Positions 13,307 through 36,305 of a stretch of 64,000 nt of DNA are shown here, piece after piece; positions within the stretch are counted from its first letter, which is position 1; each line of letters starts with the position of its first letter. Under the pieces are notes generated by a model, which was not told the origin of the DNA, did not search any database, and saw only the letters and a program-made list of their open reading frames with translations. The stretch spans positions 163,513 through 227,512 of the forward strand of contig JAJPYB010000008.1 of NCBI GenBank assembly GCA_021205185.1, written 5' to 3'. Made by a program: the position numbers and the translations under genes. The stretch comes from Ruminococcus sp. (GTDB lineage: Bacteria > Bacillota > Clostridia > Oscillospirales > Ruminococcaceae).

Positions 13307-14011
13307 ATGAAAAGAATATTTTTTACATTTGTCATATTTCTGACGGCGGCATTTATGCTTGTGGGTTGTACTGACTCGAATGATGAAAGCTCGAGTGAGG
13401 ATGGCTCAGCTGTCGAAACCACAACCACCGAAGCTACTACTGAAGATACAACTACCGAAGCTGCCAGCACAACCACTACAACCACTACGACTACAACCTC
13501 GAGCACGCCTATTCCAACTCAGGCGACGCTTAAAACAACGCCGAAAACAACCACAACAACTACAACCACTACTACGACGACTACAACAACCACCACAACC
13601 ACTACTACCACTACTCAGACAACAACGAGCAAGTTTAAAATGACAAGAGGTTCCTACGCAGCAATTATAAACGGCTATACAGTATATCTCGGCGAGAAGA
13701 TAACAAGCAAAATCGACAAGCTTGGCACTCTGCAGGCTACCGTTTCTCAAATAGACGATATTTCTATCTATTCTTATGAGGATTGTAAGATTACCACACG
13801 AGAGGGTTACGTTACTCAGATTTCTATTATTGGAAGCGGCGTTTCAACCGACACAGGAATTTCTATCGGTTCGGCACTTGACGACATTTTAGAAAAATAC
13901 GATAATGCCGCCTACAACGCAAGCGTAGTTTACGCTTCAAATGGAGATTGCGCAATCCAGTTTAATTTAGAGGACGGCGTGGTTACAATGATAACCCTGT
14001 CCGCTTCGTAA
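13307..14011 (+). CDS. Lipoprotein with poly-threonine stalk (unknown function)
   Basis: Surface lipoprotein of 234 residues. The signal peptide ends in lipobox LVGC, lipidation on C21. An extremely Thr-rich stalk (about 35-110) includes an uninterrupted run of 23 Thr at 81-103 encoded by mixed ACN codons. A compact C-terminal domain of about 115 residues follows. I recognise no family for that domain. The stalk probably holds it away from the membrane through the cell wall. An intrinsic terminator follows. Confidence 0.75.
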   Translation: MKRIFFTFVIFLTAAFMLVGCTDSNDESSSEDGSAVETTTTEATTEDTTTEAASTTTTTTTTTTSSTPIPTQATLKTTPKTTTTTTTTTTTTTTTTTTTTTTTQTTTSKFKMTRGSYAAIINGYTVYLGEKITSKIDKLGTLQATVSQIDDISIYSYEDCKITTREGYVTQISIIGSGVSTDTGISIGSALDDILEKYDNAAYNASVVYASNGDCAIQFNLEDGVVTMITLSAS

Positions 14012-16671: not shown

Positions 16672-17250
16672 ATGTCAAAAGGCAACAGACTAAGCAAGCG
16701 GCACGAAGCTGAAAAGGAAAAGACAAAAGCGGCAAAAAGCTCAGCGGAAGCTAAAAAGTTTATGAAAAGGGAATCCTTTATATACCTGTTTTTGAAGCTT
16801 TTAATGCTGGCGTCGTTTTTGTATTCCGGACTTTTTTACGGCGGCATTACAGTAGTCGGCGTATATATCGGCGCTATGTCCGTTACCGAAGAGGGAGCGC
16901 TTACAATAGCGAGCGCGAATATGATGCTTGTGGGCATTCTCTTTATGGTTTTAGGGCTTGTTCTGGCATTTTTTAAAAAATACATATTGAGCTTTATACC
17001 GATATTGGTGGGCACCTATCTGTATATATATGTTGCCTACAATCGGGTTATTAAATTTGCGGCGGACAGAGTTACCGAAAGCGGAGAAATTGACCTCGAC
17101 AACAAGTATAAAATCTGGTACTATCCGATTGGTATACTTGTGCTTATTTCATTTGTGCTTGTGGTAATTACAGTTATTAAATTTATCAACAGAAACAGAA
17201 TTACTAAGAAAGAAAGAGATAATGCGCCGGTCAAGAGCATTGTCGACTAA
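16672..17250 (+). CDS. Four-helix membrane protein, unknown function
   Basis: Protein of 192 residues. A very basic N-terminal tail (about 1-40) is followed by four hydrophobic segments (about 42-65, 80-100, 103-122 and 148-172). I recognise no family. An AGAGGTGA ribosome binding site precedes the ATG. It has its own promoter and a strong terminator immediately downstream, so it is at most weakly linked to the acyltransferase operon that follows. Confidence 0.6.
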   Translation: MSKGNRLSKRHEAEKEKTKAAKSSAEAKKFMKRESFIYLFLKLLMLASFLYSGLFYGGITVVGVYIGAMSVTEEGALTIASANMMLVGILFMVLGLVLAFFKKYILSFIPILVGTYLYIYVAYNRVIKFAADRVTESGEIDLDNKYKIWYYPIGILVLISFVLVVITVIKFINRNRITKKERDNAPVKSIVD

Positions 17251-17315: not shown

Positions 17316-18737
17316 TTGATTTTTGCAGACTTGTTTTTTCTATACATATTTCTTCCAATCTGCCTGATTTTTTACTTTGTTTGTAAAAAAACGGTATGGA
17401 GAAATCTTGTGCTGATAGTGTTCTCACTTATATTCTACGCATGGGGAGAGCCTATTTGCGTCTGCCTTTTGGTTTTCAGCGCATTGGTAGACTACATAAA
17501 CGGCAGAATGATTGACAGATACAGAGGTAAGCTTGGCGCAAAGCTGGCGCTTGCGTCGTCACTCATAATAAATCTCGGACTGTTGTTTGTATTTAAGTAT
17601 TTAGGCTTCTTTGTAGAAAACTTAAATTACTTCACAGGGCTTTCAATCCTCGTTCCGTCAATCGAGCTTCCAATCGGTATAAGCTTTTATACTTTTCAGA
17701 CAATCTCCTACACGATAGATTGCTACTGGGGAAAGGTAAAAACTCAAAGGAGCTTTTTAAACTTTCTGATGTACGTTTCTCTATTCCCTCAGCTTGTTGC
17801 AGGACCAATAGTCAGATACGCAACTGTTGAGCAGGAGATAAATTGCAGGCACACAACCGCTCTCGATATATCCGAGGGAATTTCAAGAATTTGTATAGGA
17901 CTTGGCAAAAAGGTTCTGATAGCTGACAATTTAAGTCTTTTGGTTACTGGACTTTTCGGCGACTCGTCAAGCGGCTATGCGGCGCTGAGCGGACTTTCCG
18001 CCGTTGGAACATGGTACGGAGCGATAGCTGTCGGACTTTGGTACTATTTTGATTTTTCAGGCTATAGCGATATAGCAATAGGCTTAGGAAGAATTTTCGG
18101 CTTCCACTTTAACGAAAACTTCAACCACCCGTTTATGTGCAGAAATATAACGGAGTTCTGGCAGCGTTGGCACATTTCGCTCGGAAGCTTTTTCAGAGAT
18201 TATCTTTTCTACCTGCCGATATTCGGAAAAAGGCGGCAGTATCTTAACCTGTTTTTAGTATGGTTCTGTACGGGACTCTGGCACGGAGCGAGCTGGAACT
18301 TTATAATATGGGGACTTTACTGGGGCGTATTCATTCTGATTGAAACGAAGATTGGAAAGAAGCGGCTGAAGAAAATTCCTGCTGTGATAACGCACATTTA
18401 CAGCAAGCTTGTAATAACTATCGGCTTTGGAATATTCTATTTTGAATCGTTTGACAAGCTGGGACTGTTCTTTAAAAATCTCGTTTGTGCGGGCGGCAAC
18501 AAGCTTATCGACTCTAAGAGCGAAACGCTTATGCTTCAATACATATTCCTGATGGCGGCGGCGGTACTTTTAAGCTTCCCGGTTATCGACTTTATAAAGA
18601 AGCTTGCGTCAAAATTCAAAACGTCTTATTATATTGTCAACGGAGCAGGAGTAATATGCAACGGAACAATTTTAGTTTTATCGAGTATAATGCTTGTAAC
18701 GAGTACGGTACATCCGTTTTTGTATTTCAGGTTTTAA
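17316..18737 (+). CDS. MBOAT-family membrane O-acyltransferase (AlgI/DltB-like)
   Basis: Polytopic membrane enzyme of 473 residues that passes an acyl group across the membrane to a surface polymer. Family hallmarks are FWQRWHISLGSFFRDYLF (H286) and the catalytic LWHGASWNF (H323), with 10 or more hydrophobic helices. It begins with TTG at 17316 after AAAGGAGAG; no nearby ATG would keep the first helix. AlgI uses acyl donors in alginate acetylation, while DltB uses carrier-bound D-alanine. Here a carrier-protein gene and an FkbH-type loader follow in the same operon, so the donor is probably carrier-bound, but the polymer and acyl group are not shown. Confidence 0.9.
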   Translation: MIFADLFFLYIFLPICLIFYFVCKKTVWRNLVLIVFSLIFYAWGEPICVCLLVFSALVDYINGRMIDRYRGKLGAKLALASSLIINLGLLFVFKYLGFFVENLNYFTGLSILVPSIELPIGISFYTFQTISYTIDCYWGKVKTQRSFLNFLMYVSLFPQLVAGPIVRYATVEQEINCRHTTALDISEGISRICIGLGKKVLIADNLSLLVTGLFGDSSSGYAALSGLSAVGTWYGAIAVGLWYYFDFSGYSDIAIGLGRIFGFHFNENFNHPFMCRNITEFWQRWHISLGSFFRDYLFYLPIFGKRRQYLNLFLVWFCTGLWHGASWNFIIWGLYWGVFILIETKIGKKRLKKIPAVITHIYSKLVITIGFGIFYFESFDKLGLFFKNLVCAGGNKLIDSKSETLMLQYIFLMAAAVLLSFPVIDFIKKLASKFKTSYYIVNGAGVICNGTILVLSSIMLVTSTVHPFLYFRF

Positions 18738-18749
18738 AGGGAATAAAAA

Positions 18750-19415
18750 ATGAGCGACAATAAAAAACAACAAAAGAATATAGAGGTTACCTCCGTTGAC
18801 GGAATAGTACATGAAAAGAAAAGCGTTGATTTAAAGTCGGTAAACTCAGCACTTAAAAGCTCAGATGATGTCAAGCTCAAAAGTAAGGCGAATAAGCCTG
18901 ATAAGAGTGCTGGTGTAAAGGTTGGGGGCAAGGCTAAAAATAGCAGGAGGTCGAAACAGCCGGAGCTTAAATTCAACGGACACGAAAGAGCGTTTTCTCT
19001 TTTCAATATTATTTTCATAGCGGCGATATTTGTTTCAATTATAGTGTATCTGTTGGTGCTTGAGCGGCCGAGCGGATTTATGGAAAGCGAAAACAGAAAC
19101 TACGCTGAGCTGCCGTCATTTTCGCTGGAGCTTTACTTTAGCGGAGAGTATACCGAGGACGTAGACACCTACTTTACCGACACTACTCCTAACAGGGAGG
19201 AGCTAAAGGAAATTGCAAACCGCTTTTCCTCGCTTTTCGGCTTTAGCCTGAACAATACGACAATTCAAAGCTCAGGTTCCAGCACGGCAACGCACGAAAC
19301 ATTTGACGACAGCAAGGAGATTACAAGCGCTACTGCCGTAACCTTCACAACGACAAGCAAGGAGGAAGCCACAACCGTAGAGGTTGCCGAAACAACAGCC
19401 GTTTCAGATGAATAG
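18750..19415 (+). CDS. Truncated DHHW-like membrane protein (AlgJ/DltD-position accessory)
   Basis: Protein of 221 residues, 12 bp after the acyltransferase. A basic, Lys-rich cytoplasmic tail (about 1-85) leads to one membrane helix (about 88-108). Then comes a segment, ERPSGFMESENRNYAELPSF...YFSGEYTEDVDTYFTD, resembling the membrane-proximal part of DHHW/AlgX-like proteins that partner MBOATs. The catalytic SGNH/DHHW domain that normally follows (about 250 residues) is missing; instead there is a short Ser/Thr-rich tail and a stop. No leftover coding sequence lies in the 30-bp gap to the next gene, so the short form looks stable rather than freshly broken. Confidence 0.65.
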   Translation: MSDNKKQQKNIEVTSVDGIVHEKKSVDLKSVNSALKSSDDVKLKSKANKPDKSAGVKVGGKAKNSRRSKQPELKFNGHERAFSLFNIIFIAAIFVSIIVYLLVLERPSGFMESENRNYAELPSFSLELYFSGEYTEDVDTYFTDTTPNREELKEIANRFSSLFGFSLNNTTIQSSGSSTATHETFDDSKEITSATAVTFTTTSKEEATTVEVAETTAVSDE

Positions 19416-19445
19416 TTATGAGATTTTACAAGGTGGGAGATTAAA

Positions 19446-21224
19446 ATGACAGAGCTTGAATATCCGTTTGACAGCGGCTTGATTTTAAAGAAGAGAAAAA
19501 GACTTAAAAGGGAGCTTTTAGCGTCAGATGACAATAGAATAAAAAAGAAAATCGCTGTATTAGGCGGCTCGACGACCAGCGATATAACGTCAATTTTAGA
19601 GCTGTTTTTGCTGAACGTCGGAATCGAGCCTGAGTTTTACGAGTGTGAATACGCACAATTCTGGCAGGACGTTATGTTTGAAAACGAAAAGCTGTATGAG
19701 TTTTCGCCCGACATTGTGTACATTCACACCTCGATTCGCAACCTTACCGAAAGGGTAGGTGTAAAAATGAGCGAGAGCGAGGTATCGCTTCAGCTCGAGA
19801 GCGAGTACAAGAGATTTGAGGAAATGTGGGAAAAGCTAAAGGCTGACTTTGGCGCAGTAATCATTCAAAACAACTTTGAGCAGCCGTACTTTCGGATTTT
19901 AGGAAATAAGGACGCAAGCGACATTCACGGCCTGACAAATTTTGTAACAAGGCTGAACTTGAAGTTCTACGAATACGCCGAGCGCAACCAGAGCTTTTTT
20001 ATAAACGATATAAATTACCTGTCCGCAGACTTTGGGCTTTCAAAATGGAGCGAGCCGAAGTGGTGGTATATGTATAAATACAGCCTTTGCCTTGACGCTG
20101 TGCCGACACTTTGCTACAATGTAGCAAACATCATAAAGTCGTTTCTTGGCAAGAACAAAAAAGCGTTAGCTCTCGACCTTGACAACACCCTTTGGGGAGG
20201 GGTTGTCGGCGACGACGGAATTGATAAAATCGTCATTGGACAGGAAACAGCCGAAGCGGAAGCCTATTACGAGTTTCAGGAATACATAAAGGCGCAAAAG
20301 GATATAGGAGTTTTGCTGACAGTAGCTTCTAAAAACGACGAAGAAAACGCGCTCGCAGGACTTAACCACTCGGACGCCGCCCTTTCAGCAGACGACTTTA
20401 TCAGCATTAAGGCGAACTGGGAGCCAAAGGACGTAAATATCAAAAATACTGCCGACGAGCTCGGACTTCTGCCAGAAAGCTTTGTTTTCGTTGACGATAA
20501 CCCTGCCGAGCGAATGATAGTTTCCTCACAGCTTGCCGTTCAGGCGCCGCCTATGGAGAGCGTTGACAGCTACATAAAAACGCTTGATCGAAGCGGTTTT
20601 TTTGAGGTGACGAGCCTTTCAGCCGACGACTTAAAGCGAAGCGAAATGTACGAAGCGAACGCTAAGCGAAACATTCAAAGGGCAAAATTTCAAAGCTACA
20701 ACGACTATCTTTTAAGCCTTGAAATGACGGCGGAAATAGCCGATTTTAAGCCGCTTGATTTACAGCGCATAACTCAGCTTACTAACAAGAGCAATCAATT
20801 TAACCTGACGACAAAGCGTTTTACTCAGCCTGAAATTGAAGCTGTTTTTGAAAGTGGCGACTATATACGTCTTTGCGGAAGGCTAAGGGATAAGTTCGGC
20901 GACAACGGAATAGTATCTGTCGTTATCGGAAAAATAAACGGAGATACGCTCGATATAATTCTTTGGCTTATGAGCTGTAGAGTTTTAAAGCGAGATATGG
21001 AATACGCTATGCTTGACACTCTTGTGAAAAAGGCGTATGATATGGGAATAAAGAAGATAATCGGGTATTATTATCCGACGGCGAAGAATAAAATGGTAGC
21101 AACGCTTTATAAGGATTTCGGCTTTGACGAGATTTCAAGAGATGAGAGCGGAAATACTGTATGGTCGCTCGTAATTGACTCTTATCAGCCGAAAAATAAG
21201 GTAATTGATGTAAAGGAGAAATAG
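19446..21224 (+). CDS. FkbH-type glyceryl-carrier loading enzyme (HAD phosphatase + GNAT)
   Basis: Protein of 592 residues. The N-terminal FkbH_N-like domain (about 30-235) starts with the strand-loop AVLGGSTTSD. The HAD-IIIC domain (about 238-375) has catalytic D244 and D246 in ALDLDNTLWGGVVGDDG and FVDDNPAERMI downstream. The C-terminal GNAT-like domain (about 405-575) has LTNKSNQFNLTTKR. Characterised FkbH proteins take 1,3-bisphosphoglycerate, remove the phosphate and load a glyceryl group onto a carrier-protein thiol. The next gene, 3 bp on, is a carrier protein, which supports this. No polyketide synthase is nearby, so a role in surface acylation is inferred. Confidence 0.88.
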   Translation: MTELEYPFDSGLILKKRKRLKRELLASDDNRIKKKIAVLGGSTTSDITSILELFLLNVGIEPEFYECEYAQFWQDVMFENEKLYEFSPDIVYIHTSIRNLTERVGVKMSESEVSLQLESEYKRFEEMWEKLKADFGAVIIQNNFEQPYFRILGNKDASDIHGLTNFVTRLNLKFYEYAERNQSFFINDINYLSADFGLSKWSEPKWWYMYKYSLCLDAVPTLCYNVANIIKSFLGKNKKALALDLDNTLWGGVVGDDGIDKIVIGQETAEAEAYYEFQEYIKAQKDIGVLLTVASKNDEENALAGLNHSDAALSADDFISIKANWEPKDVNIKNTADELGLLPESFVFVDDNPAERMIVSSQLAVQAPPMESVDSYIKTLDRSGFFEVTSLSADDLKRSEMYEANAKRNIQRAKFQSYNDYLLSLEMTAEIADFKPLDLQRITQLTNKSNQFNLTTKRFTQPEIEAVFESGDYIRLCGRLRDKFGDNGIVSVVIGKINGDTLDIILWLMSCRVLKRDMEYAMLDTLVKKAYDMGIKKIIGYYYPTAKNKMVATLYKDFGFDEISRDESGNTVWSLVIDSYQPKNKVIDVKEK

Positions 21225-21227
21225 GCT

Positions 21228-21473
21228 ATGGACAGACAGGATATAATAGATCGCCTGAATGAAGTTTTCAGGGATGTTTTTGACGACGATGAAATTGAAG
21301 TCGATGATGAAACTACTGCTGACGATATTGAGGACTGGGACAGTATAGAGCATATAAACCTTATTTCGGCGGTTGAAAGCGAGTTTGGCATTCGTTTTAA
21401 AATGGGCGAGGTTTCAGGAATGAACGACGTCGGAGAAATGATAAGCATTATAGAGGAAAGAACAGCAAAATAG
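21228..21473 (+). CDS. Stand-alone acyl carrier protein
   Basis: Acidic four-helix carrier of 81 residues with the phosphopantetheine site at S39 in EDWDSIEHINLI. AAGGAG at 21213-21218 sets the ATG, 3 bp after the FkbH-type gene. It is unlikely to be the fatty-acid AcpP because no fab genes are near, the site reads DSIEH rather than DSLDT/V, and it is locked into the MBOAT/FkbH operon. The best reading is the dedicated donor carrier of the acylation system, the equivalent of DltC. Confidence 0.9.
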   Translation: MDRQDIIDRLNEVFRDVFDDDEIEVDDETTADDIEDWDSIEHINLISAVESEFGIRFKMGEVSGMNDVGEMISIIEERTAK

Positions 21474-21496: not shown

Positions 21497-23062
21497 ATGG
21501 CAAAAATGAAGCTGAAGCTTCCGCAAAAGGACTTTAAATATTATGTACAGTCGGCGTTTTCAAGGAAAATCACCATCGTTGTTTTGCTCGCCTTGCAGCT
21601 TCTTTTGTTTGTACTTTTGTATTTCCGTACCGTTTCCAGCTTTGCCGCAATGTACGCTGTTCAAACCGTTTTGGCGGGCGTTATAGCGGTGCTTATTGTA
21701 AATTCAAACGACCACCCGTCATATAAGATAGCGTGGCTTGTTCCAATGGTTATACTGCCGGGCTTTATGTCGTTGGCGTATATTTACCTTCACGCACAGA
21801 TAAACCGAGTTCGGTTTACAAAAAGCATTAATATTGTAAACAAGCAGACAAAGCGCTATATGCCGCAGGAGCAAAGCGTTTTAGATGAGCTTCGGGAGGA
21901 GGACCATTATAGTGCAAGTCTTTCAAGCTATATAAACAAATATGCGGGTTATCCTGTTTACAAAAATACAGACGCTGAGTATTTTAAAATAGGAGAGGAG
22001 CTTTACGCCAGACTTATAGAAGAGCTGAAAGCGGCGCGGCACTATATCTTAATGGAATTTTTCATAATCGACGAGGGCGAAGTCTGGCGCACGATTTTAA
22101 GAATTCTGCTCGAAAAGGCAAACGCTGGAGTTGAGGTTCGCCTGATGTACGACGGTATGGGCAGCGCGTCAATCTTGCCGTGGGGACATGATAAATTCTT
22201 AAACGACAACGGTATAAAATGCAAGGTGTTTAATAAATTCAGACCCTTTCTGGCTTCCGAGCAAAACAACCGTGACCACAGAAAAATTGTAGTAATCGAC
22301 GGAACTACAGCCTTTACAGGCGGCATAAATTTAGCCGACGAGTATATAAACAAGAAGGTGCGTTTCGGACATTGGAAGGACTCCGGAGTAATGCTCAAGG
22401 GCGACGCTGTCTGGAACTTTGCTATAATGTTTTTCCAGATGTGGGAGCTTGACGAGCGGGATTGCGAGGACTATAATCGTTACCGACCGCACAAGGTTTA
22501 TCTTGCAAGTGAAAACGGCGGCTTTGTTCAGCCTTACGGAGACTGTCCTAACGACGCTGAAACTGTTGGTAAAACGGTTTATCTCGATATGATTTCAAAG
22601 GCGAAGGATTATATTTATATTACCGCTCCGTATTTTGTAATAGATAACGAGCTTGTAACCGCTTTAGCGTTTGCAGCAAAAAGCGGAGTTGACGTAAAAA
22701 TAATAGTTCCGGGAATTTATGATAAGTGGTACGTTCACCAGATGTCTATGTGCTACTACAGAGAGCTTTTGCCCTGCGGAGTTAAGTTTTACAGCTATAC
22801 GCCCGGATTTGTCCACGCTAAAAACTTCGTGTCAGACGACAAAAAAGCGGTAGTCGGAACGATAAACACAGACTTCAGAAGTTTATATTTGCATTTTGAG
22901 GACGCAGTTTTTATGTACGATTCGCCTGCGGTAAGTGATGTAAAAGCGGACTTTCTAACGACCCTTAAAAGCTGCAAGGAGCTTACCCTAAAGGACGTAA
23001 ACAAGAATATCTTCTCACGCCTTTTAGGCTCGATAATAAAGGTCTTTGGACCGCTGCTTTAA
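21497..23062 (+). CDS. cls: Cardiolipin synthase (phospholipase D family)
   Basis: Condenses two phosphatidylglycerol molecules into cardiolipin at the membrane. The 521-residue protein has two N-terminal membrane helices (about 22-75) and two HKD catalytic motifs, in NRDHRKIVVIDG and in FVHAKNFVSDDKKAV. An AAGGGGAA ribosome binding site precedes the ATG, 23 bp after the carrier gene, so it is probably co-transcribed. A terminator follows. Confidence 0.93.
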   Translation: MAKMKLKLPQKDFKYYVQSAFSRKITIVVLLALQLLLFVLLYFRTVSSFAAMYAVQTVLAGVIAVLIVNSNDHPSYKIAWLVPMVILPGFMSLAYIYLHAQINRVRFTKSINIVNKQTKRYMPQEQSVLDELREEDHYSASLSSYINKYAGYPVYKNTDAEYFKIGEELYARLIEELKAARHYILMEFFIIDEGEVWRTILRILLEKANAGVEVRLMYDGMGSASILPWGHDKFLNDNGIKCKVFNKFRPFLASEQNNRDHRKIVVIDGTTAFTGGINLADEYINKKVRFGHWKDSGVMLKGDAVWNFAIMFFQMWELDERDCEDYNRYRPHKVYLASENGGFVQPYGDCPNDAETVGKTVYLDMISKAKDYIYITAPYFVIDNELVTALAFAAKSGVDVKIIVPGIYDKWYVHQMSMCYYRELLPCGVKFYSYTPGFVHAKNFVSDDKKAVVGTINTDFRSLYLHFEDAVFMYDSPAVSDVKADFLTTLKSCKELTLKDVNKNIFSRLLGSIIKVFGPLL

Positions 23063-23237: not shown

Positions 23238-24302
23238 ATGGCAAAAACAAGGGTAGCTGTTTTATTTGGAGGACAGTCAAACGAGCATGAAATTTCGCTT
23301 ATTTCGGCTTCAAATATCATAAGAAATATACCGAAGGATAAATACGAGGTAATTACCATCGGAATTACCAAAAAGGGCAGATGGCTTTTGTATCAGGGCG
23401 AGGTTGATTCTATTGAAAACGGACTATGGGAGACAAATCCCGATAACGTATCCTGCGTTTTAAGTCCCGACCCGATACACAAGGGATTTTTAGCTCTTAT
23501 GGACGGCGGCGAGGTTTCGCACATCAGAGTTGACGTTGTATTCCCGGCTCTTCACGGAAAAAACGGCGAGGACGGAACCATTCAGGGACTTTTAGAGTTA
23601 GCGCAGATTTCGTTTGTCGGCTGTGATTTGATCTCTTCGGCAAATTGTATGGATAAGGGTATGACACATATAATTTTACAGGCAGCAGGCATTAAAACCG
23701 CCAAGTGGGTAACAATGATAGAGTCTGAACTTGATGAGATTGAAGCTTTTGCTGATAAAATGGAGGAAAGCCTTATCTATCCGATGTTTGTAAAGCCTGC
23801 TAACTGCGGCTCGTCGGTAGGAATTTCAAAGGTATCTGACAGAAGAGAGCTTATAACGGGAATCAAGACGGCTTTCGCTCACGACAAAAAGGTTGTCATT
23901 GAGGAGGGCCTGACAGGCGTTGAATGCGAGTGCGCCGTTATGGGAAATGCGGAGCCTGTAGCTTCTACTGTCGGTGAAATTGCGGCGGCAAACGAGTTTT
24001 ACGATTACGAGGCAAAATACCAGAACGAGGAAAGCAAAACCTTCATTCCAGCCAGAACTATTCCAGCTGAGAAAATTGAAAAAATAAGAGAAATTGCAAT
24101 CAGAGCGTATAAAGCTCTCGGCTGTTCGGGACTTGCAAGAGTTGACTTTTTCTATCTTGAAAACGGAGAGATATACTTAAACGAGATAAACACAATGCCT
24201 GGGCACACAAAGATAAGTATGTACCCGCAGCTTATGGAATATATGGGAATTTCTCAGAGCGAGCAGGCTGACAGACTTATAACCCTTGCACTCGAAAGAT
24301 GA
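23238..24302 (+). CDS. ddl: D-alanine--D-alanine ligase
   Basis: ATP-grasp enzyme making D-Ala-D-Ala for peptidoglycan precursors. The 354-residue protein has FGGQSNEHEISLISA at the N-terminus, the ATP-binding KPANCGSSVGISKV and the omega-loop EFYDYEAKYQ with its Tyr-Lys-Tyr elements. These favour a true D-Ala-D-Ala ligase over a VanA-type D-Ala-D-Lac ligase. GAGAGG precedes the ATG. First gene of a six-gene operon with intergenic gaps of 3-19 bp. Confidence 0.96.
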   Translation: MAKTRVAVLFGGQSNEHEISLISASNIIRNIPKDKYEVITIGITKKGRWLLYQGEVDSIENGLWETNPDNVSCVLSPDPIHKGFLALMDGGEVSHIRVDVVFPALHGKNGEDGTIQGLLELAQISFVGCDLISSANCMDKGMTHIILQAAGIKTAKWVTMIESELDEIEAFADKMEESLIYPMFVKPANCGSSVGISKVSDRRELITGIKTAFAHDKKVVIEEGLTGVECECAVMGNAEPVASTVGEIAAANEFYDYEAKYQNEESKTFIPARTIPAEKIEKIREIAIRAYKALGCSGLARVDFFYLENGEIYLNEINTMPGHTKISMYPQLMEYMGISQSEQADRLITLALER

Positions 24303-24321
24303 TACATATAGGAGATAGAAC

Positions 24322-25131
24322 ATGAAAGACAGCGCAATAGGCGTTTTTGATTCGGGAGTTGGCGGACTTACAAGCGTCGGCGAGCTCAGACGGATTTTAC
24401 CACACGAAAATATAATATTTCTCGGCGATACAGCAAGGCTTCCTTATGGAACCAAATCGCCTGATACAGTGCATCGCTATGCGCTTGAGGACGCAAGGTT
24501 TTTGCAGGAGCGGGATGTAAAGATGATTATTGTCGCTTGCGGAACCGTTTCGTCGGTAATGATGACAAAGCCTGTTTTTGACGGAAGCCTGCCGTACACA
24601 GGCGTGGTTTATCCAGCCGTTGCAGCGGCAGTCAAGAAAACAAAGTGTAAGCGAATTGGCGTTATCGGCACAAGCGCTACCATAAAGTCGGGTGCTTACG
24701 AACAGGCAATAAAGGACATCGACGACAGCATTACCGTTGTAACCAAAGCCTGCCCGATGTTTGTACCGCTTGTTGAAAACGGTTATACCGATTACGGGAA
24801 TAAGGTAACTGCATCTATCGTTGAGGACTATTTAAGCGTTATGAAGCAGGAGCGTGTTGACGCACTCATTATGGGCTGCACCCACTACCCTCATCTGAGC
24901 GAGTTTTTCAGAGATTATTTAGGCGATTCGGTTGAGCTTATTTCTTCGGGCGGCGAGGCTGCAAAATTTGCATGGAGAGTGCTTGAAGCAAAGGACCTTT
25001 TATCCGACAGAAAGGAAGAAGGCAAAACGGAGCTTTATTGCACCGATAGCGTTGAGCTTTTTTCGGAGAATGTTGAAACCTTTTTGGGAGAAAGTAAAAA
25101 TCTCAGCATTTCCAAATGCGTGCTGAAATGA
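24322..25131 (+). CDS. murI: Glutamate racemase
   Basis: Makes D-glutamate for peptidoglycan. The 269-residue protein has IGVFDSGVGGLTS, LGDTARLPYGTKS and the two catalytic cysteines C73 (ACGTVSS) and C186 (GCTHYPHL). AGGAG precedes the ATG, 19 bp after ddl; both genes feed the same wall pathway. Confidence 0.96.
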   Translation: MKDSAIGVFDSGVGGLTSVGELRRILPHENIIFLGDTARLPYGTKSPDTVHRYALEDARFLQERDVKMIIVACGTVSSVMMTKPVFDGSLPYTGVVYPAVAAAVKKTKCKRIGVIGTSATIKSGAYEQAIKDIDDSITVVTKACPMFVPLVENGYTDYGNKVTASIVEDYLSVMKQERVDALIMGCTHYPHLSEFFRDYLGDSVELISSGGEAAKFAWRVLEAKDLLSDRKEEGKTELYCTDSVELFSENVETFLGESKNLSISKCVLK

Positions 25132-25149
25132 AAAATATGAGGAATTGAA

Positions 25150-25575
25150 ATGGAAGAAAAGAATGTTTTGATAACCTTTAAAACCAGGCAGGACGACGGC
25201 GTCAATCAGGAGGAAATAGAGGTTATTACCGGCGGAAGCTTTTTGAAAACAGACGACGGATATGTAATAAAATATGAAGAAACCGAAGCGACAGGCTTTG
25301 ACGGGTGTCTGACGACGCTTACCGTTACGGGTGAGGAAAAGGTCGTTTTAGACAGAACAGGCGCTGTGCAAAGCCGACTTGTGATTGACAGAAATAAAAA
25401 GCACTACTGTAATTACGGAACCCCATACGGCTCAATTCAGATGGGAGTTCAGACGGGAGAAATCCGCTCAACCCTAAACGACAGCGGCGGTGATTTGTTT
25501 TTTAAGTATGTGATAGATGTCGAAGCAAGTTTGCTTGGAAATTACGAGGTTTCGATAAACGTAAAGGAAAGCTGA
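25150..25575 (+). CDS. DUF1934 (YwiB-like) beta-barrel protein
   Basis: Predicted calycin-like beta-barrel protein of 141 residues, related to B. subtilis YwiB. Family features are the N-terminal VLITFKTRQ strand and the C-terminal GDLFFKYVIDVEASLLGNYE. ywiB lies next to argS in Bacillus, and the same order is seen here with a 15-bp gap. Function unknown. Confidence 0.8.
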   Translation: MEEKNVLITFKTRQDDGVNQEEIEVITGGSFLKTDDGYVIKYEETEATGFDGCLTTLTVTGEEKVVLDRTGAVQSRLVIDRNKKHYCNYGTPYGSIQMGVQTGEIRSTLNDSGGDLFFKYVIDVEASLLGNYEVSINVKES

Positions 25576-25590
25576 GGAAGGTAAAAGACA

Positions 25591-27267
25591 ATGAATATGA
25601 TAGAGGAAGCAAAAAATCAAGTAAGGGAAATTATTTCAGCGGCGGTAAATTCGCTTTTTGACGAGGGCAAGCTTCAAAGAGTCGAGCTGCCGAAGGTCAA
25701 TGTTGAAATTCCAGCAGACAGCAAAAACGGAGATATGTCGTCAAACTTTGCGCTTGCAGGAGCGAGAATTTTCAGAAAATCGCCGAGAGACATAGCCACT
25801 CTTATCAAAGAAGCCGCAAGCCTTGAGGGCAGCTATTTTGAAAAAATGGAAATAGCGGGCGCCGGATTTATTAACTTTTACTATTCGGCTACTTGGTTTG
25901 CAAAAACTGTAAGCGATATAATTTCACAGGGCGAAAGCTACGGCTCGGCTGAGAGTAATGGCAAGAGGGTTCTTATTGAATACGTTTCCGCCAACCCGAC
26001 AGGTCCTATGCATATAGGCAACGCAAGAGGCGGAGCGATTGGCGATTGCTTAGCGTCGGTTATGGAAAAGGCAGGCTGGGAGGTAGACAGAGAGTTTTAT
26101 GTAAACGACGCCGGAAATCAGATTGAAAAGTTCAAGACAAGCTTAGAGTGCAGGTACCTTTCTCTTTACAAGGAGGGAATAGAAATGCCTGAGGACTCAT
26201 ACCATGGCGAGGATATTATAGAGCACGCAAAAAATTATGCTGACATTTACGGTGATAAGCTTCTGAATGTAAGCTCGGAGGAAAGGCGACAGGAGCTTTG
26301 CGACTTTGCGCTTCCAAAGAACATAGAGGGACTGGAGCGGGATTTAAAAAAGTACAGAATAGTATATGATAAGTGGTTTAAGGAAAGCGAGCTTCACCAG
26401 AGCGGAGCTGTTGACGAGATTTTGGAAAAGCTTAAGCAAAGCGGGTACACCTATACTCAGGGCGGCGCACTCTGGTTTAAGTCAAGCGAGCTGGGAGATG
26501 AAAAGGACAGAGTTTTAGTAAGGGAAAACGGAATACCTACCTACTTTGTTCCTGATATTGCCTACCACTACAACAAGCTTGTCACAAGAGGCTACGACAA
26601 GGCGATAGATATTCTGGGAGCTGACCATCATGGCTATATTCCAAGAATGAAAGCTGCTATGGCGGCTCTTGGCGTCGACGCCGATAAGCTTGATATGGTA
26701 ATTATGCAAATGGTAAATCTTGTCAAGGACGGCGAGAGGTACAAGCTTTCAAAACGTTCGGGAAAAGCAATTACGCTTTCAACCCTTCTGGATGAAATTC
26801 CAATAGACGCCGCAAGATTTTTCTTTAATCTTCGTGAACCTGATTCGCACTTTGATTTTGATATTGATCTCGCAATAAGCGAAACAAGTCAGAATCCTGT
26901 TTATTACGTTCAATACGCTCACGCTCGAATTTGTTCAATTCTAAAGGGATTAAAGGAAGAGGGAATCCAGATTGCCGAAGGAGTTGGACTTGAGCTTTTA
27001 ACAACACCAGAGGAAACTGAGCTTATAAAGCATTTAGCAGAGCTTCCGGACTGCATTTTAGAATCTGCTAAGGATTACGACCCCTCGAAGGTTACAAGAT
27101 ATGCGGTTGAAACGGCTACCCTTTACCACAAATTCTATTCATCCTGCAGGGTAAAATGTGATGATGAGAAGCTGATGCTGGGAAGAATTTCACTTTGTCT
27201 TGCGGTAAAGCAGGTAATCAAGAATGTTTTGGATATGCTTAAGATAACCTGTCCTGAGCATATGTAG
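25591..27267 (+). CDS. argS: Arginyl-tRNA synthetase
   Basis: Class I aminoacyl-tRNA synthetase charging tRNA-Arg, 558 residues. The N-terminal additional domain is followed by SANPTGPMHIGNARGGAIGD (the HIGH-type site), the KLSKRSGKA region equivalent to KMSK, and the DALR anticodon-binding domain (about 435-558). The first ATG (25591) has GAGGAAGG 9-10 nt upstream; an ATG two codons on is an alternative. No T-box leader was seen before it; it depends on the upstream operon promoter. Confidence 0.96.
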   Translation: MNMIEEAKNQVREIISAAVNSLFDEGKLQRVELPKVNVEIPADSKNGDMSSNFALAGARIFRKSPRDIATLIKEAASLEGSYFEKMEIAGAGFINFYYSATWFAKTVSDIISQGESYGSAESNGKRVLIEYVSANPTGPMHIGNARGGAIGDCLASVMEKAGWEVDREFYVNDAGNQIEKFKTSLECRYLSLYKEGIEMPEDSYHGEDIIEHAKNYADIYGDKLLNVSSEERRQELCDFALPKNIEGLERDLKKYRIVYDKWFKESELHQSGAVDEILEKLKQSGYTYTQGGALWFKSSELGDEKDRVLVRENGIPTYFVPDIAYHYNKLVTRGYDKAIDILGADHHGYIPRMKAAMAALGVDADKLDMVIMQMVNLVKDGERYKLSKRSGKAITLSTLLDEIPIDAARFFFNLREPDSHFDFDIDLAISETSQNPVYYVQYAHARICSILKGLKEEGIQIAEGVGLELLTTPEETELIKHLAELPDCILESAKDYDPSKVTRYAVETATLYHKFYSSCRVKCDDEKLMLGRISLCLAVKQVIKNVLDMLKITCPEHM

Positions 27268-29002: not shown

Positions 29003-30070
29003 ATGCTTTGTATTGATGAGTTTTTTAGTCTGAAGTCGTCGTGGGAAAGGCTTGTCCTAACCGATAAGCCGATATACGTTTACGGAATGGGCGACGGCTG
29101 TATAAAGCTTATGAAGCAGTTTGAACGCTTTGGCATAAAAATAGCAGGAATTTTTGCAAGCGACGAGTTTGTCAGAGGTCATAGTTTTTTGGACTTTAAG
29201 GTTCAGAAGCTTAGCGAGGTTGAAGCGCAAAACGACGACTTTGTTATAGCTTTAGCCTTTGCGGCGGGCTATAAGGAGCTGATTGAAAAGATTGACAGTA
29301 TTGCAAAAAAGCACGAGCTTATTGTTCCCGATACGGCAGTTTACGGCGGCGAGCCGTTTTTAAAGGAGACGCTTGAGAGCAGCTTTGACAAGGCAAGTGT
29401 CGTTTACGAGCATTTGAGTGATGAAAAATCGAGGAGCGTTTTTAAAAGCGTCGTAAAATACAAGATAACAGGCGACATTAGCTTTTTGAAGTCCTGTGAA
29501 ACAACTCCCGAGGAAGCGTACCTGAATATTTTGAAGCCGAGCGGCGATGAGGTTTATGTTGATCTGGGAGCGTATACGGGAGATACTGTAAAGGAGTATC
29601 TGACCTTTGCAAAGAGCTATAAAAGGATATATGCGGTTGAACCTAACGGCAGAAATTTCAGAAAGCTAAGCGAGTATATGAGTACGCTTGACAAAGCGGA
29701 GGCTGTAAACGCCGCAGCAACAGATACAAGCGGTAAGGTATATTTTGCGAAGGGCGGCGGAAGACAGGCGAGAATAGACGATAAAAAGGGCGTTCTGACC
29801 GACGCTATAAGCGTTGACAGCTTGCTTATGGGTAAGCCTGTCGACTTTATCAAGTACGACGTCGAGGGCGAGGAAATGAAAGCTTTGAAGGGAAGCGAGC
29901 AAACGATAAAAAATTACTCGCCAAAGCTTTGCGTTGCGCTTTATCACAAGCTTTACGATATGTTTGACCTTCCTCTTGAGGTCTTGCGACTAAACCCCGA
30001 TTATAAGCTTTACATTCGCCATTATCCATATTATCCTGCGTGGGAAACTAATTTGTTTGCTAAAATTTAA
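29003..30070 (+). CDS. FkbM-family methyltransferase with N-terminal Rossmann-like domain
   Basis: Protein of 355 residues. The N-terminal part (about 20-115), starting IYVYGMGDGCIKLMKQF, looks like a nucleotide-sugar-type Rossmann domain. The SAM-dependent FkbM methyltransferase domain (about 170-330) has VYVDLGAYTGDTV, YAVEPNGRNF and IKYDVEGEEMKALKG. Such enzymes often O-methylate sugars in surface polysaccharides. It starts 3 bp after the membrane glycosyltransferase gene, supporting a joint role. Last gene of the ddl operon; a terminator follows. Confidence 0.85.
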   Translation: MLCIDEFFSLKSSWERLVLTDKPIYVYGMGDGCIKLMKQFERFGIKIAGIFASDEFVRGHSFLDFKVQKLSEVEAQNDDFVIALAFAAGYKELIEKIDSIAKKHELIVPDTAVYGGEPFLKETLESSFDKASVVYEHLSDEKSRSVFKSVVKYKITGDISFLKSCETTPEEAYLNILKPSGDEVYVDLGAYTGDTVKEYLTFAKSYKRIYAVEPNGRNFRKLSEYMSTLDKAEAVNAAATDTSGKVYFAKGGGRQARIDDKKGVLTDAISVDSLLMGKPVDFIKYDVEGEEMKALKGSEQTIKNYSPKLCVALYHKLYDMFDLPLEVLRLNPDYKLYIRHYPYYPAWETNLFAKI

Positions 30071-30109
30071 AGCGTCTGAGGTAAGCTTTAAGCTTTCCCG
30101 ACGCTTTTT
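30069..30109 (+). terminator. Intrinsic terminator
   Basis: AAAGCGTC (30069-30076) pairs with GACGCTTT (30100-30107), with an inner GG-AAGCTT/AAGCTT-CC stem, then a T-run. Confidence 0.85.
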
Positions 30110-30130
30110 GCGTGTTTTGCTAACTTGTCA

Positions 30131-30159
30131 TTGTTTTTTCACGCTCTTTGTGGTAAAAT
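30131..30159 (+). promoter_or_regulatory. Promoter of the recG-polA operon
   Basis: TTGTTT (30131-30136), a 17-nt spacer and TAAAAT (30154-30159), 37 bp before the recG ATG. Confidence 0.65.
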
Positions 30160-30196
30160 GAAAGAAATAGATTAAAAGCAAAAGGGAAGTGATAGG

Positions 30197-32224
30197 ATGC
30201 AGCTTGGACTTAACGACAGTATAACCTACCTTAAGGGCGTGGGGCCTGTTCGGGCGGATAACTATAAAAAGCTCGGGATTCTTACCGTTAAAGACCTTTT
30301 GTATCACTTCCCACGTGGCTATATAGATTTGTCGACGCCTTTGTCAATCAAGGATGCGCCACTTGGAGAAACCTGTGCTGTTGCAGGGCGAATTGTAAGT
30401 AAGCTTCCTCCAGCGAGAATAAGAAAAGGGCTTATCATCTTCAAGGCGATTTTTACCGACGACGAGGAGGACCTGACCGTTACAATTTATAACAGCGAGT
30501 ATCTGTTCAATTCTCTTGTTCTGGGTGAGCCGATTATTCTGTACGGAAAAGTAACGGGAAATATGGTGAGAAAGGAAATGAGCTCGCCTACCGTTTTTAA
30601 AATAAGCGCAGGGGCTAATTTGCAGCCTGTTTATCCGCTGACCGAGGGGATAACGCTAAAGCTTATCAGGGAGAATATAAAGAGCGCTCTTGAGCTTTTA
30701 AACGGAAGAATTTACGAACCGGTTCCAAAAGATATTTTAAAAAGGCACAAGCTTTGCTCCCTTCCGTTTGCACTTTACAACATTCATTTTCCAAAGGACG
30801 ATTACAGCTATCAGACAGCAAAGCGGCGGCTTGTCTTTGACGAGCTTTTAACGCTCGGACTGGGAATGTTTATGCTAAAGGGCAGAAACAAGGAGCAAAC
30901 ACCGAACAGGCTGAGCGACAAAAGCATTGACGAGTTTTATAAAAGCCTTCCATTTGAGCCGACAGATTGCCAGATGAAAGCGATTGACGAATGTATAGAG
31001 GATATGAAAAAGTCCTGTCCGATGAACAGACTTTTGCAGGGAGATGTCGGAAGTGGTAAAACGGCGGTTGCGGCGGCGGCAAGCTATTTTGTTTTTAAAA
31101 ACAATAAGCAGACGGCGCTTATGGCGCCGACTGAAATATTAGCCTCCCAGCATTACGAAACCTTTAAAGCGTTTTTAGGGCCGCTCGGAGTGAGCGTTGG
31201 GCTTTTGGTAGGCGCATTGACGCAAAAGCAAAAGGAAAAAATACATGAGCAAATAGAAAGCGGCGAGATAGATGTTATTATCGGCACACAGGCGCTTTAT
31301 CAGCAAAGCGTGAGCTTTAAGGACTTAGCGCTTGTAATTACCGATGAGCAGCACCGATTTGGAGTTGAGCAGCGAGCATCGCTTTCCAAAAAGGGAGCAG
31401 AGCCTCACGTTCTGGTAATGTCGGCAACGCCGATTCCAAGAACCTTAGCCTTGATGATTTACGGAGATCTGGATATTTCCGTGCTTGACAAGCTGCCGTC
31501 AGGCAGAAAAAAGGTTGAAACCTATGCTGTTACCGGCAAGCTCAGAAGCAGAGCGTACAGCTTCATTAAAAAGGAGCTTGATAAGGGTCATCAGGCGTAC
31601 ATAGTTTGTCCGATGATTGAAGAAAACGATTCGGGGCTCAAAAGCGTAAAGGCTTATGCCAAAAAGCTTCAGGACGAGGACTTTTCAGGCTATACTGTCG
31701 GACTTCTACATGGAAAAATGAGTGCCGACGAAAAGGAAAGAATTATGGCGAGCTTCAAGCGTGGAGAAATTGACGTCTTAGCTTCAACTACAGTTGTTGA
31801 GGTAGGAGTTGACGTGGCGAACGCAACGATTATTTTAATCGAGAACGCGGAACGCTTCGGACTTTCACAGCTTCATCAGCTAAGAGGCAGGGTAGGACGT
31901 GGCAGCGAGCAGTCGCATTGCATTTTAGTTACCGACAACCCGACTGAGGACTGCAGAAAGCGACTTAAAATAATATCGGAAACCTCAGGCGGATTTGAGC
32001 TTGCAAGAGAGGATCTTAAAATGCGTGGGCCAGGCGACTTTTTTGGCTCGAAGCAGCACGGACTTCCGAAGCTTAAAATTGCGGATATGTCGGAGGATAT
32101 AGAGGTTTTAAAGGAAGCTCAGGACGAAGCAAAGCAGATTTTTGAAGCGGATCCGCACCTAAAGCTTTCAAGCAATAAGGGCCTCAGAGGGCTTGTTACC
32201 GAGCTTTTTGAAAGGTACAACTGA
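30197..32224 (+). CDS. recG: ATP-dependent DNA helicase RecG
   Basis: Branch-migrating helicase for stalled forks and Holliday junctions, 675 residues. The N-terminal wedge/OB domain begins with the HhH-like YLKGVGPVRADNYKKLGI. Helicase motif I is LQGDVGSGKTAVA, motif II TDEQHRFG, followed by VMSATPIPRTLALMIYGDLD and the C-terminal RGRVGRG. Length is standard. GGGAAG precedes the ATG. First gene of a six-gene operon ending in polA. Confidence 0.97.
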   Translation: MQLGLNDSITYLKGVGPVRADNYKKLGILTVKDLLYHFPRGYIDLSTPLSIKDAPLGETCAVAGRIVSKLPPARIRKGLIIFKAIFTDDEEDLTVTIYNSEYLFNSLVLGEPIILYGKVTGNMVRKEMSSPTVFKISAGANLQPVYPLTEGITLKLIRENIKSALELLNGRIYEPVPKDILKRHKLCSLPFALYNIHFPKDDYSYQTAKRRLVFDELLTLGLGMFMLKGRNKEQTPNRLSDKSIDEFYKSLPFEPTDCQMKAIDECIEDMKKSCPMNRLLQGDVGSGKTAVAAAASYFVFKNNKQTALMAPTEILASQHYETFKAFLGPLGVSVGLLVGALTQKQKEKIHEQIESGEIDVIIGTQALYQQSVSFKDLALVITDEQHRFGVEQRASLSKKGAEPHVLVMSATPIPRTLALMIYGDLDISVLDKLPSGRKKVETYAVTGKLRSRAYSFIKKELDKGHQAYIVCPMIEENDSGLKSVKAYAKKLQDEDFSGYTVGLLHGKMSADEKERIMASFKRGEIDVLASTTVVEVGVDVANATIILIENAERFGLSQLHQLRGRVGRGSEQSHCILVTDNPTEDCRKRLKIISETSGGFELAREDLKMRGPGDFFGSKQHGLPKLKIADMSEDIEVLKEAQDEAKQIFEADPHLKLSSNKGLRGLVTELFERYN

Positions 32225-32248
32225 ATTTTTGCAAAGGAGAAATGAAAA

Positions 32249-32899
32249 ATGGACGAGAAAATTTTAAATCTTATGAAAAAAGCAAGAGATGCGCTGGTTA
32301 AAAATAATATAGCAGCCATTATTGCAAACGACAATGTCGAAGCTGTGGAAATTGCAAGGAGCTTAATACACGAAGGCGATACGATTTCATTCGGCGGAAC
32401 TCAGTCGGTTGTTCAGGCGGGAGTTATGGATATGCTGAAAAACGGCAACTACAAGCTTCTTGACCGCTCAAAGTGCGAAAGCCGAGAGGAGGTTGAAGAG
32501 CTTTACAGAAAAAGCTTCTTTGCAGACTGTTATTTTTGCTCTTCAAATGCCGTTACGCTAAACGGCGAGCTTTATAACGTCGACGGAAATTCAAACAGAG
32601 TGGCGGCAATTTGCTACGGACCAAAGTCGGTTGTTATGATTGTGGGATACAATAAGATTGTTAATAATCTCGAAGAAGCGGTTGAACGTGTAAAAAGAGT
32701 AGCGGCGCCGCTGAATTCAAAAAGATTAAACTGCAAGACCTACTGCCTGAACGCAGAGGAGTGTATGGGAATTGACGGCGATATGACAAGCGGCTGTCAG
32801 AGCGACGAGAGAATCTGCTGCAATTATTTGGTAAGCGCAAAGCAAAGGCAAAAGGGAAGAATAAAGGTAATTCTTGTGGGCGAATCGCTGGGGTATTAA
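32249..32899 (+). CDS. LUD-domain protein (LutC-like)
   Basis: Protein of 216 residues with the lactate-utilisation LUD fold: GDTISFGGTQSVVQAGVMDML, FCSSNAVTLNGELYNVDG and YGPKSVVMIVGYNKIV. The C-terminus carries a cysteine cluster (CKTYC, EECMG, SGC, RICCNY) that could hold a metal or Fe-S site. The partner proteins LutA and LutB are not nearby, so a lactate-oxidation role is uncertain. AAAGGAG precedes the ATG. Confidence 0.8.
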   Translation: MDEKILNLMKKARDALVKNNIAAIIANDNVEAVEIARSLIHEGDTISFGGTQSVVQAGVMDMLKNGNYKLLDRSKCESREEVEELYRKSFFADCYFCSSNAVTLNGELYNVDGNSNRVAAICYGPKSVVMIVGYNKIVNNLEEAVERVKRVAAPLNSKRLNCKTYCLNAEECMGIDGDMTSGCQSDERICCNYLVSAKQRQKGRIKVILVGESLGY

Positions 32900-32908
32900 G
32901 GAGGAAGA

Positions 32909-35585: not shown

Positions 35586-36288
35586 CGACTTTAAATTTGA
35601 AAAATTAAACGATAAGCTTTTCGTCTGCGTGTCAGGCGAGCATCGCTTTGGAACTGACGCTTTTCTGCTCGCTCACTTTTCACAGACTAGAAGGAAGGAC
35701 TTGGTCTGCGACTTTTGTAGTGGAAACGGAATAGTAGCGCTGCTGCTTGAAAAGTTTTATTCGCCGAAGAAGATATACGCTGTGGAAATTCAGGACAAGG
35801 CGTTTTGTCAGCTTGAAAAGAGCAAGGAGCGTTCCAGGCTTTTAAAGCTTGAAGCTTTTCACGGCGATATAAAGGACTTTAAAGCGAGTGAGGAGCTTGA
35901 CCTTATAACCTGCAATCCGCCGTATAAGGTAACCGGAACGGGAATAATAAGCGATAGTGCTGCGGATAAAATCGCCAGGCACGAAACGCTTTGCAGGATA
36001 GAGGACGTTTGCTGTGCGGCTGAGAGGAATCTTAAGTTTGGCGGAAGGCTTTGTATTACGAATCGCCCTGAGCGACTAGCGGACGTTTTGTGTGCTATGA
36101 GAGAATATAAAATTGAGCCGAAAAGAATAAGATTCGTTTCAAAGGAAAAGGGCGGCGCACCGTGGCTTATGCTTGTCGAAGGCAAAAAGGGAGCAAAGCC
36201 GTTTATGACGGTTGAAAAGGGACTTTACGTTTACGAAGAAAACGGCGAATACAGCGAGGAAATGAAACAGCTTTACAGCATAGACTGA
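35575..36288 (+). CDS. TrmN6-like adenine N6-methyltransferase (tRNA1(Val) type)
   Basis: SAM-dependent methyltransferase of 237 residues. The SAM motif I is VCDFCSGNGIVALLL, and the catalytic NPPY motif (ITCNPPYKVTG) indicates N6-adenine or similar amino methylation. It fits the YfiC/TrmN6 family, which methylates A37 of tRNA-Val in E. coli. The start overlaps dus by 11 nt, linking two tRNA-modification genes. Confidence 0.85.
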   Translation: MNYDDFKFEKLNDKLFVCVSGEHRFGTDAFLLAHFSQTRRKDLVCDFCSGNGIVALLLEKFYSPKKIYAVEIQDKAFCQLEKSKERSRLLKLEAFHGDIKDFKASEELDLITCNPPYKVTGTGIISDSAADKIARHETLCRIEDVCCAAERNLKFGGRLCITNRPERLADVLCAMREYKIEPKRIRFVSKEKGGAPWLMLVEGKKGAKPFMTVEKGLYVYEENGEYSEEMKQLYSID

Positions 36289-36305
36289 CAGCTTGGAGGA
36301 GTAAT

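Follow-up and report, generated by a model that had tools for sequence, protein, structure and literature searches.

A presumably carrier-fed MBOAT operon with an FkbH protein in place of DltA and a split SGNH transferase may place glyceryl esters on a polymer outside Ruminococcus cells

We analyzed a four-gene operon in a 64,000-nucleotide stretch of a Ruminococcus sp. genome (assembly GCA_021205185.1, contig JAJPYB010000008.1, positions 163,513 to 227,512), which we refer to as the window. The operon encodes a membrane-bound O-acyltransferase (MBOAT), a short DHHW-family protein, an FkbH-type protein and a carrier protein. We consider it rather probable that this operon, acting with a lipoprotein of the SGNH type that is encoded at a distance, moves a glycolysis-derived glyceryl group onto a polymer outside the cell. 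The genes, their conservation and their motifs, together with a split of the final transferase into two halves of common descent, can be read from the sequence itself. An initial annotation had treated the operon as a Dlt-like system in which FkbH replaces the loader DltA. Our analysis supports the replacement but not the likeness to Dlt at the membrane.

The four open reading frames (ORFs) are tightly packed on the plus strand where the initial annotation had located them, with gaps of 12, 30 and 3 nt between them and purine-rich stretches ahead of their start codons (Table 1). The source genome comprises 1.75 Mb in 13 contigs, and the closest named relative of its FkbH protein that we found, at 95% identity, comes from a Ruminococcus sp. 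metagenome-assembled genome.

The FkbH protein scored 278 bits against TIGR01686 (curated cut-off, 147), and its DLDNT motif lies at residues 244-248, as had been annotated. It consists of an N-terminal domain, a HAD domain and a GNAT-like domain with Cys511; in the predicted fold, the N-terminal and HAD part matched 3slr, and there were also matches to GNAT enzymes. Asp244, Asp246, Lys296, Asp350 and Asp351, plus Cys511 in MSCRVLKRDMEYAM, were invariant in 12 of 12 aligned relatives, a hand-picked subset (alignment A1, 12 rows). Cys511 is probably the residue that bears the glyceryl group; we found no literature source for a catalytic cysteine. We predict glyceryl as the carried group from what FkbH enzymes are known to catalyze.

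The carrier protein matched the PP-binding family PF00550 at 21.7 bits (cut-off, 20.8), with Ser39 confirmed as the predicted phosphopantetheine site, and Trp37, Asp38, Ser39 and His42 were invariant in all 10 relatives of a likewise hand-picked alignment (A2, 10 rows). We rejected the possibility that it is the fatty-acid acyl carrier protein (ACP), because the window genome encodes two AcpPs elsewhere that exceed the cut-off of 70 bits, scoring 90 and 89, as well as another carrier that reaches 47 bits. Since the operon carrier reached 18 bits against the AcpP model, far below these two AcpPs, it is probably dedicated to its own pathway. The 64-kb window contains no ORF of polyketide-synthase size, the largest encoding 972 aa. 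No DltA scored above the family cut-off in the window genome (best TIGR01734 matches, 95 and 54 bits; cut-off, 560), and FkbH is found where a loader would be needed, which agrees with the proposal that it takes the place of DltA.

The MBOAT protein matched PF03062 at 77 bits (cut-off, 27). Its predicted catalytic residue, His323, lies within LWHGASWNF as previously noted, and was invariant in 20 of 20 aligned sequences, again a hand-picked subset (A3, 20 rows). The protein ends in FLYFRF, an instance of the FXYXXF acyl-shuttle motif that includes Tyr470. Extracts of PMC12148441 describe FXYXXF as the proven acyl-tyrosine shuttle of PatA and state that MBOATs with this motif bear it on two transmembrane helices that are absent from DltB. 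In our predicted model, helices at residues 400-419 and 435-462 lie past the part that aligns with DltB (residues 1-384), and the match to the DltB equivalog TIGR04091 was 143.9 bits, under its cut-off of 375. Taken together, the MBOAT is PatA-like at its C-terminal end rather than Dlt-like at the membrane step. With an FXYXXF motif of its own and an SGNH half of the DHHW/PatB1 family, described below, the machine differs from the Dlt-like one first proposed.

Two other MBOAT genes were observed in the same genome. One paralogue (L003:8713-10062, contig C8; L143-L156) has WYG replacing the catalytic WHG and is without the C-terminal FXYXXF. All 15 genus genomes examined, G000 among them, have it as an uninterrupted frame of 449-493 codons. 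It is followed by a second long ORF in all 13 genomes whose stretch reached far enough, and is likely a conserved MBOAT pseudoenzyme. The other belongs to a further MBOAT-SGNH pair (L002:8064-10768, contig C9) and may be broken, since its N-terminal match spans several stop codons in the window genome.

The second gene of the operon had been annotated as a short DHHW-like membrane protein. This description holds in that the product matched PF14286 (DHHW) at 32 bits (cut-off, 25) and has a transmembrane segment at about residues 86-104 by hydropathy, but the match covers only the first columns of the profile (Table 1), the HW and DS[FY] pair is missing, and the protein is one half of a split protein, with a Ser/Thr-rich tail. 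Its family match was to DHHW only; SGNH homologues were recovered with the DHHW model, and no genome-wide DltD search was made. We rejected this stub as the transferase itself because the catalytic motif is absent. A local frameshift accident was also rejected, because the Ser/Thr-rich tail ends the frame, FkbH follows 30 nt later, and stubs are present in four genus relatives (193-285 aa, window included).

Fused DHHW proteins of 444-632 aa were found in 13 loci (L016, L017, L019-L023, L025, L028, L029, L031, L033 and L085), 10 of which have all four operon genes in the same order. Each fused protein joins a stub-like N-terminal part to SGNH motifs, with TDHHW in 12 and SDHHW in L029. The catalytic half that the stub lacks is encoded on another contig (Table 1), and its gene was missed in the initial annotation because it sits outside the window. 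When 15 genomes of the genus were searched for DHHW proteins, a gene away from any MBOAT was found in the five stub genomes and in none of the other ten. These five orphan SGNH proteins have no membrane segment and carry TDHHW, KDSF and D[VI]RY; their starts read by eye as lipoprotein-type signals, with the strict pattern matched in three of the five. According to extracts of PMC9487903, KDS, DXRY and TDHHW blocks mark PatB1-type enzymes, and changes to Ser337, Asp200, His202 or Arg359 of PatB1 lowered or abolished activity. The closest solved structure to the orphan lipoprotein is PDB 4NZK (EUBSIR_00411 of Eubacterium siraeum; E 2e-83), reported as not biochemically characterized, for which our analysis suggests a role as a glyceryl transferase.

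Along the fused protein of L016, the window stub covers residues 119-229 and the orphan SGNH protein residues 257-551, the latter with 61% identity. Identity of the orphan was 60% to the L017, L019 and L025 proteins and 43-50% to those of L021, L028 and L085. In a tree of 24 SGNH sequences (unrooted, "sister" being read with the remaining sequences as outgroup), the five orphans were sister to L016, L017, L019, L020 and L025 (joint group, 98%) and far from the enzymes of G006, G009 and G012. The five stubs were left out of this tree because they lack the SGNH domain, and it was built without L024, L034, L041, L048 and L065 and without the second SGNH protein from each of L029 and L031. In the MBOAT tree (61 sequences, midpoint-rooted, with a 313-aa part as the G006 entry), these five loci again came out as the closest group to that of the window (joint group, 100%). 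Since the two trees agree on this grouping, both halves appear to share one history. Judged by these alignments and trees, the stub and the orphan lipoprotein are the split halves of one DHHW/SGNH protein, and we infer that the orphan is the partner of the operon MBOAT. A split arrangement within one operon was found in L081 (Candidatus Woodwardibium), where the genes for an MBOAT, FkbH and a carrier lie together with those for a stub of 127 aa and two SGNH proteins whose starts are lipoprotein-like. A natural split of this kind could reveal which part of the SGNH protein docks to the MBOAT.

To describe the distribution of the operon, we used the best 80 of 337 confirmed FkbH loci, some of which are cut by contig ends. 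The full quartet in the order MBOAT-DHHW-FkbH-carrier was present in 15 of these loci. A recognizable carrier was present in 67, in 61 of them within 600 nt downstream of FkbH, and an MBOAT lay within the fetched DNA of 49, including 34 outside the quartet set. The quartet and the carriers close to FkbH indicate that the grouping is not accidental and support the earlier expectation that the genes are co-conserved in relatives. In a family sample of 297 genomes, drawn evenly from a larger group and searched at an FkbH threshold of E<=1e-100, FkbH was found in 103 genomes representing 50 of 126 genera. Among the best 30 loci from these 103 genomes, 27 were outside the genus; the carrier was downstream of FkbH in all 27, and an SGNH-DHHW gene was upstream of it in 24, with one other locus starting near a contig end. 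MBOATs were beyond the reach of the short stretches fetched for these family loci.

Several FkbH loci had other gene sets. In L026, L030, L036 and L050, two half genes that look transketolase-like by eye come after FkbH, then a MaoC-like gene in three of the four, and there is an MBOAT; this set could possibly serve chain-building on the glyceryl-carrier before export. A second kind of FkbH-MBOAT locus (L035, L044, L047, L052, L054, L055 and L058) has FkbH and carrier, a glyoxalase-fold gene on the opposite strand and flanking MBOATs, with a GDSL-lipase-like lipoprotein upstream in six of the seven and glycosyltransferase-like genes (by eye) near most of them. In L029, L031, L034, L041 and L065, a tandem SGNH-DHHW pair precedes FkbH and a carrier was recognized in four of the five; no MBOAT was present in the fetched DNA of these loci, and it may sit elsewhere in those genomes.

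On the reading we favor, FkbH would take glyceryl from 1,3-bisphosphoglycerate, with its HAD domain stripping the phosphates, and would pass it, probably via Cys511, to the carrier, where the phosphopantetheine arm on Ser39 would receive it. Since glyceryl would arrive already activated, in acyl phosphate form, the system could do without a loader that uses ATP, as DltA does. The MBOAT, using His323, would move glyceryl across the membrane onto its own Tyr470, and the orphan SGNH lipoprotein would take it onto the serine of KDSF and then esterify a surface polymer, the operon stub likely docking the lipoprotein to the MBOAT. The acyl group, the order of transfer, the docking of the stub and the acceptor are the steps that we infer. 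Because the window genome encodes a synthase resembling LtaS, which scored 253 bits with the LtaS equivalog model (cut-off, 970), a polyglycerol-phosphate acceptor is possible, and teichoic acid may thus be the polymer in question. The change in wall charge or acidity that had been put forward is unlikely, since a carboxyl-linked glycerate would chemically be a neutral ester and would not act as D-alanine does; hydroxyl masking or altered hydration is the more likely effect. We lean slightly toward regarding the system as a third class of envelope acyl donor, in which a carrier receives its load from a glycolytic acyl phosphate and a PatA-type tyrosine shuttle exports it as an uncharged glyceryl ester, with the final SGNH transferase split into an operon stub and a distant lipoprotein. 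If FkbH loads glyceryl, the surface would be esterified with a glycolytic group, which could couple surface chemistry to carbon flux, and the cell would pay by forgoing the synthesis of one ATP instead of spending one on a loader.

A number of observations weigh against glyceryl transfer by these genes. The presumed identity of the acyl group is taken from FkbH family membership, and the AlphaFold model of FkbH is poor between domains (pTM 0.45), so we draw no active-site claim from it. Among the 80 FkbH loci, 13 were without a recognizable carrier, 8 had SGNH without MBOAT, and in 23 the fetched DNA, in some cases cut by a contig end, contained neither of these two. The last group leaves room for a role of FkbH in a biosynthetic cluster elsewhere, which the initial annotation had named as a refuting condition, yet the window genome has a single FkbH match. 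Two family loci (L114 and L118) have FkbH and carrier without an adjoining SGNH gene. Related MBOATs in G006, G009 and G012 (44-45% identical) sit beside a DHHW protein with no FkbH match there, so the MBOAT-SGNH core is not always FkbH-dependent. Both SGNH proteins of L081 have TEHHW rather than TDHHW. The orphan SGNH gene adjoins a PASTA-like lipoprotein gene in five of five genomes and could serve there; the PASTA-like match, with one copy scanned, was 58 bits and below cut-off, with the orphan gene downstream (L004:2482-3087, L093-L096), and this position possibly relates to wall targeting. Finally, the orphan and FkbH occur together in 5 of 15 genus genomes, and the window's form of ArgS is found in the same five. 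Because ArgS yields an identical pattern, we rejected this co-occurrence as independent evidence and count it as one clade and one event.

Of the alternatives, the one that survives best, though we regard it as unlikely, retains the MBOAT-SGNH route and has the carrier bring an acyl group other than glyceryl (lactyl, hydroxymalonyl or acetyl, for example), made by extra steps or supplied by another loader. Many MaoC-like and glyoxalase-fold genes lie near an MBOAT, with the MaoC-like cluster in 11 and the glyoxalase-fold cluster in 14 of the 80 FkbH loci (one member of each was scanned), and polyketide synthase pathways are proposed to oxidize and methylate glyceryl-ACP in extracts of PMC7489565. 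However, no MaoC, short-chain dehydrogenase/reductase or glyoxalase family was found among the scanned neighbors in the window, the genes at 23238-27267 having been named by eye only, and the HAD and Cys511 positions are retained in FkbH.

Somewhat less likely again is that the MBOAT and SGNH proteins carry out ordinary O-acetylation from acetyl-CoA like PatA, while FkbH and the carrier feed a separate pathway and are mere neighbors. The MBOAT-DHHW pairs in genomes without an FkbH match and the 23 FkbH loci without MBOAT and SGNH both speak for this explanation, and extracts of PMC10143770 describe suomilide/varlaxin clusters in which FkbH and an MBOAT act in separate steps. Against mere proximity, the MBOAT-DHHW-FkbH-carrier order is kept in 15 loci, SGNH precedes FkbH in 24 of the 27 top-scoring loci that the family sample gave outside the genus, the MBOATs near FkbH fall into two widely different groups of the MBOAT tree, and we recognized no other user of a glyceryl-carrier nearby. 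We give very little credence to decay of the operon in the genus group, in which loss of the catalytic half would have left the DHHW protein as it is and the orphan lipoprotein would serve something else: the stub without a catalytic motif and the PASTA-like neighbor would fit, but the FkbH, MBOAT, stub and carrier frames are open in the five genomes, the stub genomes and the orphan genomes are the same five, the orphan and MBOAT trees are concordant, and L081 has the split arrangement within one operon.

Table 1. Coordinates of the operon genes, their neighbors and the distant SGNH gene (window positions unless a contig is given).
Feature	Position	Strand	Motifs, matches and codons
MBOAT acyltransferase, 473 aa	17316..18737	+	H323 codon 18282-18284; FLYFRF Tyr470 codon 18723-18725
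Membrane-anchored N-terminal half of split DHHW/SGNH protein, 221 aa	18750..19415	+	PF14286 columns 1-99 of 385
FkbH, predicted glyceryl loader	19446..21224	+	TIGR01686, PF21211; Cys511 codon 20976-20978
Carrier protein, 81 aa, probably dedicated	21228..21473	+	PF00550; phosphopantetheine Ser39 codon 21342-21344
Catalytic SGNH half, orphan lipoprotein	G000:C4:105671-106741	minus	TDHHW, KDSF, DVRY
Small membrane protein, 192 aa, directly 5' of MBOAT, possible accessory part	16672..17250	+	
Cardiolipin synthase	21497..23062	+	TIGR04265, 330 bits (cut-off, 290)

The genes surrounding the operon were also considered. The small membrane protein encoded ahead of the MBOAT matched no family above cut-off in profile scans; a relative of it is present in 9 of the 15 quartet loci and absent from the other 6. 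The cardiolipin synthase gene starts 23 nt after the carrier gene and is probably a co-transcribed neighbor rather than a core part; it was found in just four quartet loci (L013, L014, L015 and L018), the closest relatives of the window, and in L014, L015 and L018 fab-like genes (named by eye) lie 3' of it. We also rejected the idea that the operon sits within a cluster for a capsule or another glycan, because the seven scanned proteins at 29003-38846 have other identities (an FkbM-type methyltransferase, RecG, a LUD-domain protein, a MutS-like protein, Dus, a methyltransferase and DNA polymerase I). A 571-aa protein encoded at 27284 matched no family in the family scan, and we take it to be a GT-C-like membrane protein. 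A lipoprotein-like ORF at 13307-14011 contains long threonine runs; linkers of this Thr-rich kind are seen again in further surface proteins that the window genome encodes.

Among the titles and abstract openings listed in our literature searches, none describes an FkbH-fed MBOAT system of the envelope; only open-licence PMC papers were covered, so that this absence is weak evidence. A 2025 paper reports, in the extracts of PMC12148441, that MBOAT-SGNH pathways other than Dlt are without a similar carrier protein, and the present operon, which many gut bacteria carry, seems to contradict this statement. We regard carrier-fed, FkbH-loaded envelope acylation by an MBOAT-SGNH pair, with a split SGNH protein in the genus group, as a new variant. 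Glycerate on surface glycans is not new in itself, since it is known from Clostridioides difficile, where lipoteichoic acid has glyceric acid as a sugar-linked residue (extracts of PMC10642750 and PMC6972965), and from a Tannerella glycan with N-glyceroyl pseudaminic acid, in which the glyceroyl group is an amide (extracts of PMC9912281). The linkages in these extracts differ from the ester predicted here, and they name no carrier-and-MBOAT route.

FkbH with an adjacent free-standing carrier is also a feature of the polyketide modules for glycerate utilization and methoxymalonyl-ACP; FkbH and a free-standing ACP giving glyceryl-ACP is the route proposed for tetronate and methoxymalonate pathways in extracts of PMC7489565. 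In contrast with those modules, no polyketide synthase is present here, and the predicted user of the glyceryl-carrier is a membrane acyltransferase. The suomilide/varlaxin clusters likewise have an FkbH that loads glycerate on a carrier domain, together with an MBOAT, but in them FkbH forms part of a peptide synthetase, as one of its domains, and the role assigned to the MBOAT is to decorate the peptide in a distinct step afterwards (extracts of PMC10143770).

Within the broad MBOAT-SGNH group (PatA/PatB, PatA1/PatB1, AlgI/AlgJ and Dlt), the operon shares the predicted catalytic histidine of WHG, and motifs for the Ser-His-Asp triad of an SGNH partner are found in the 13 fused proteins and in the orphan lipoprotein, its presumed partner. 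It resembles Dlt (DltA, DltB, DltC, DltD and DltX) in its MBOAT fold, its carrier as presumed donor and its SGNH final transferase, but has FkbH instead of DltA, a shuttle motif that the MBOAT itself carries, whereas in Dlt it belongs to DltX, an SGNH protein of the DHHW type, and a predicted neutral glyceryl group rather than the cationic D-alanyl group. PatA1/PatB1, which O-acetylates the secondary cell wall polysaccharide of Bacillus cereus, and the Gram-negative PatA/PatB likewise pair an MBOAT with an SGNH transferase; the operon MBOAT ends in FXYXXF as PatA does, and the SGNH half is, like PatB1, a DHHW-family protein with KDS, DXRY and TDHHW blocks. Unlike PatA, which uses acetyl-CoA and no carrier, the operon has a carrier and FkbH, and unlike PatB1, the SGNH protein of the genus group is split into a membrane stub and a distant lipoprotein.

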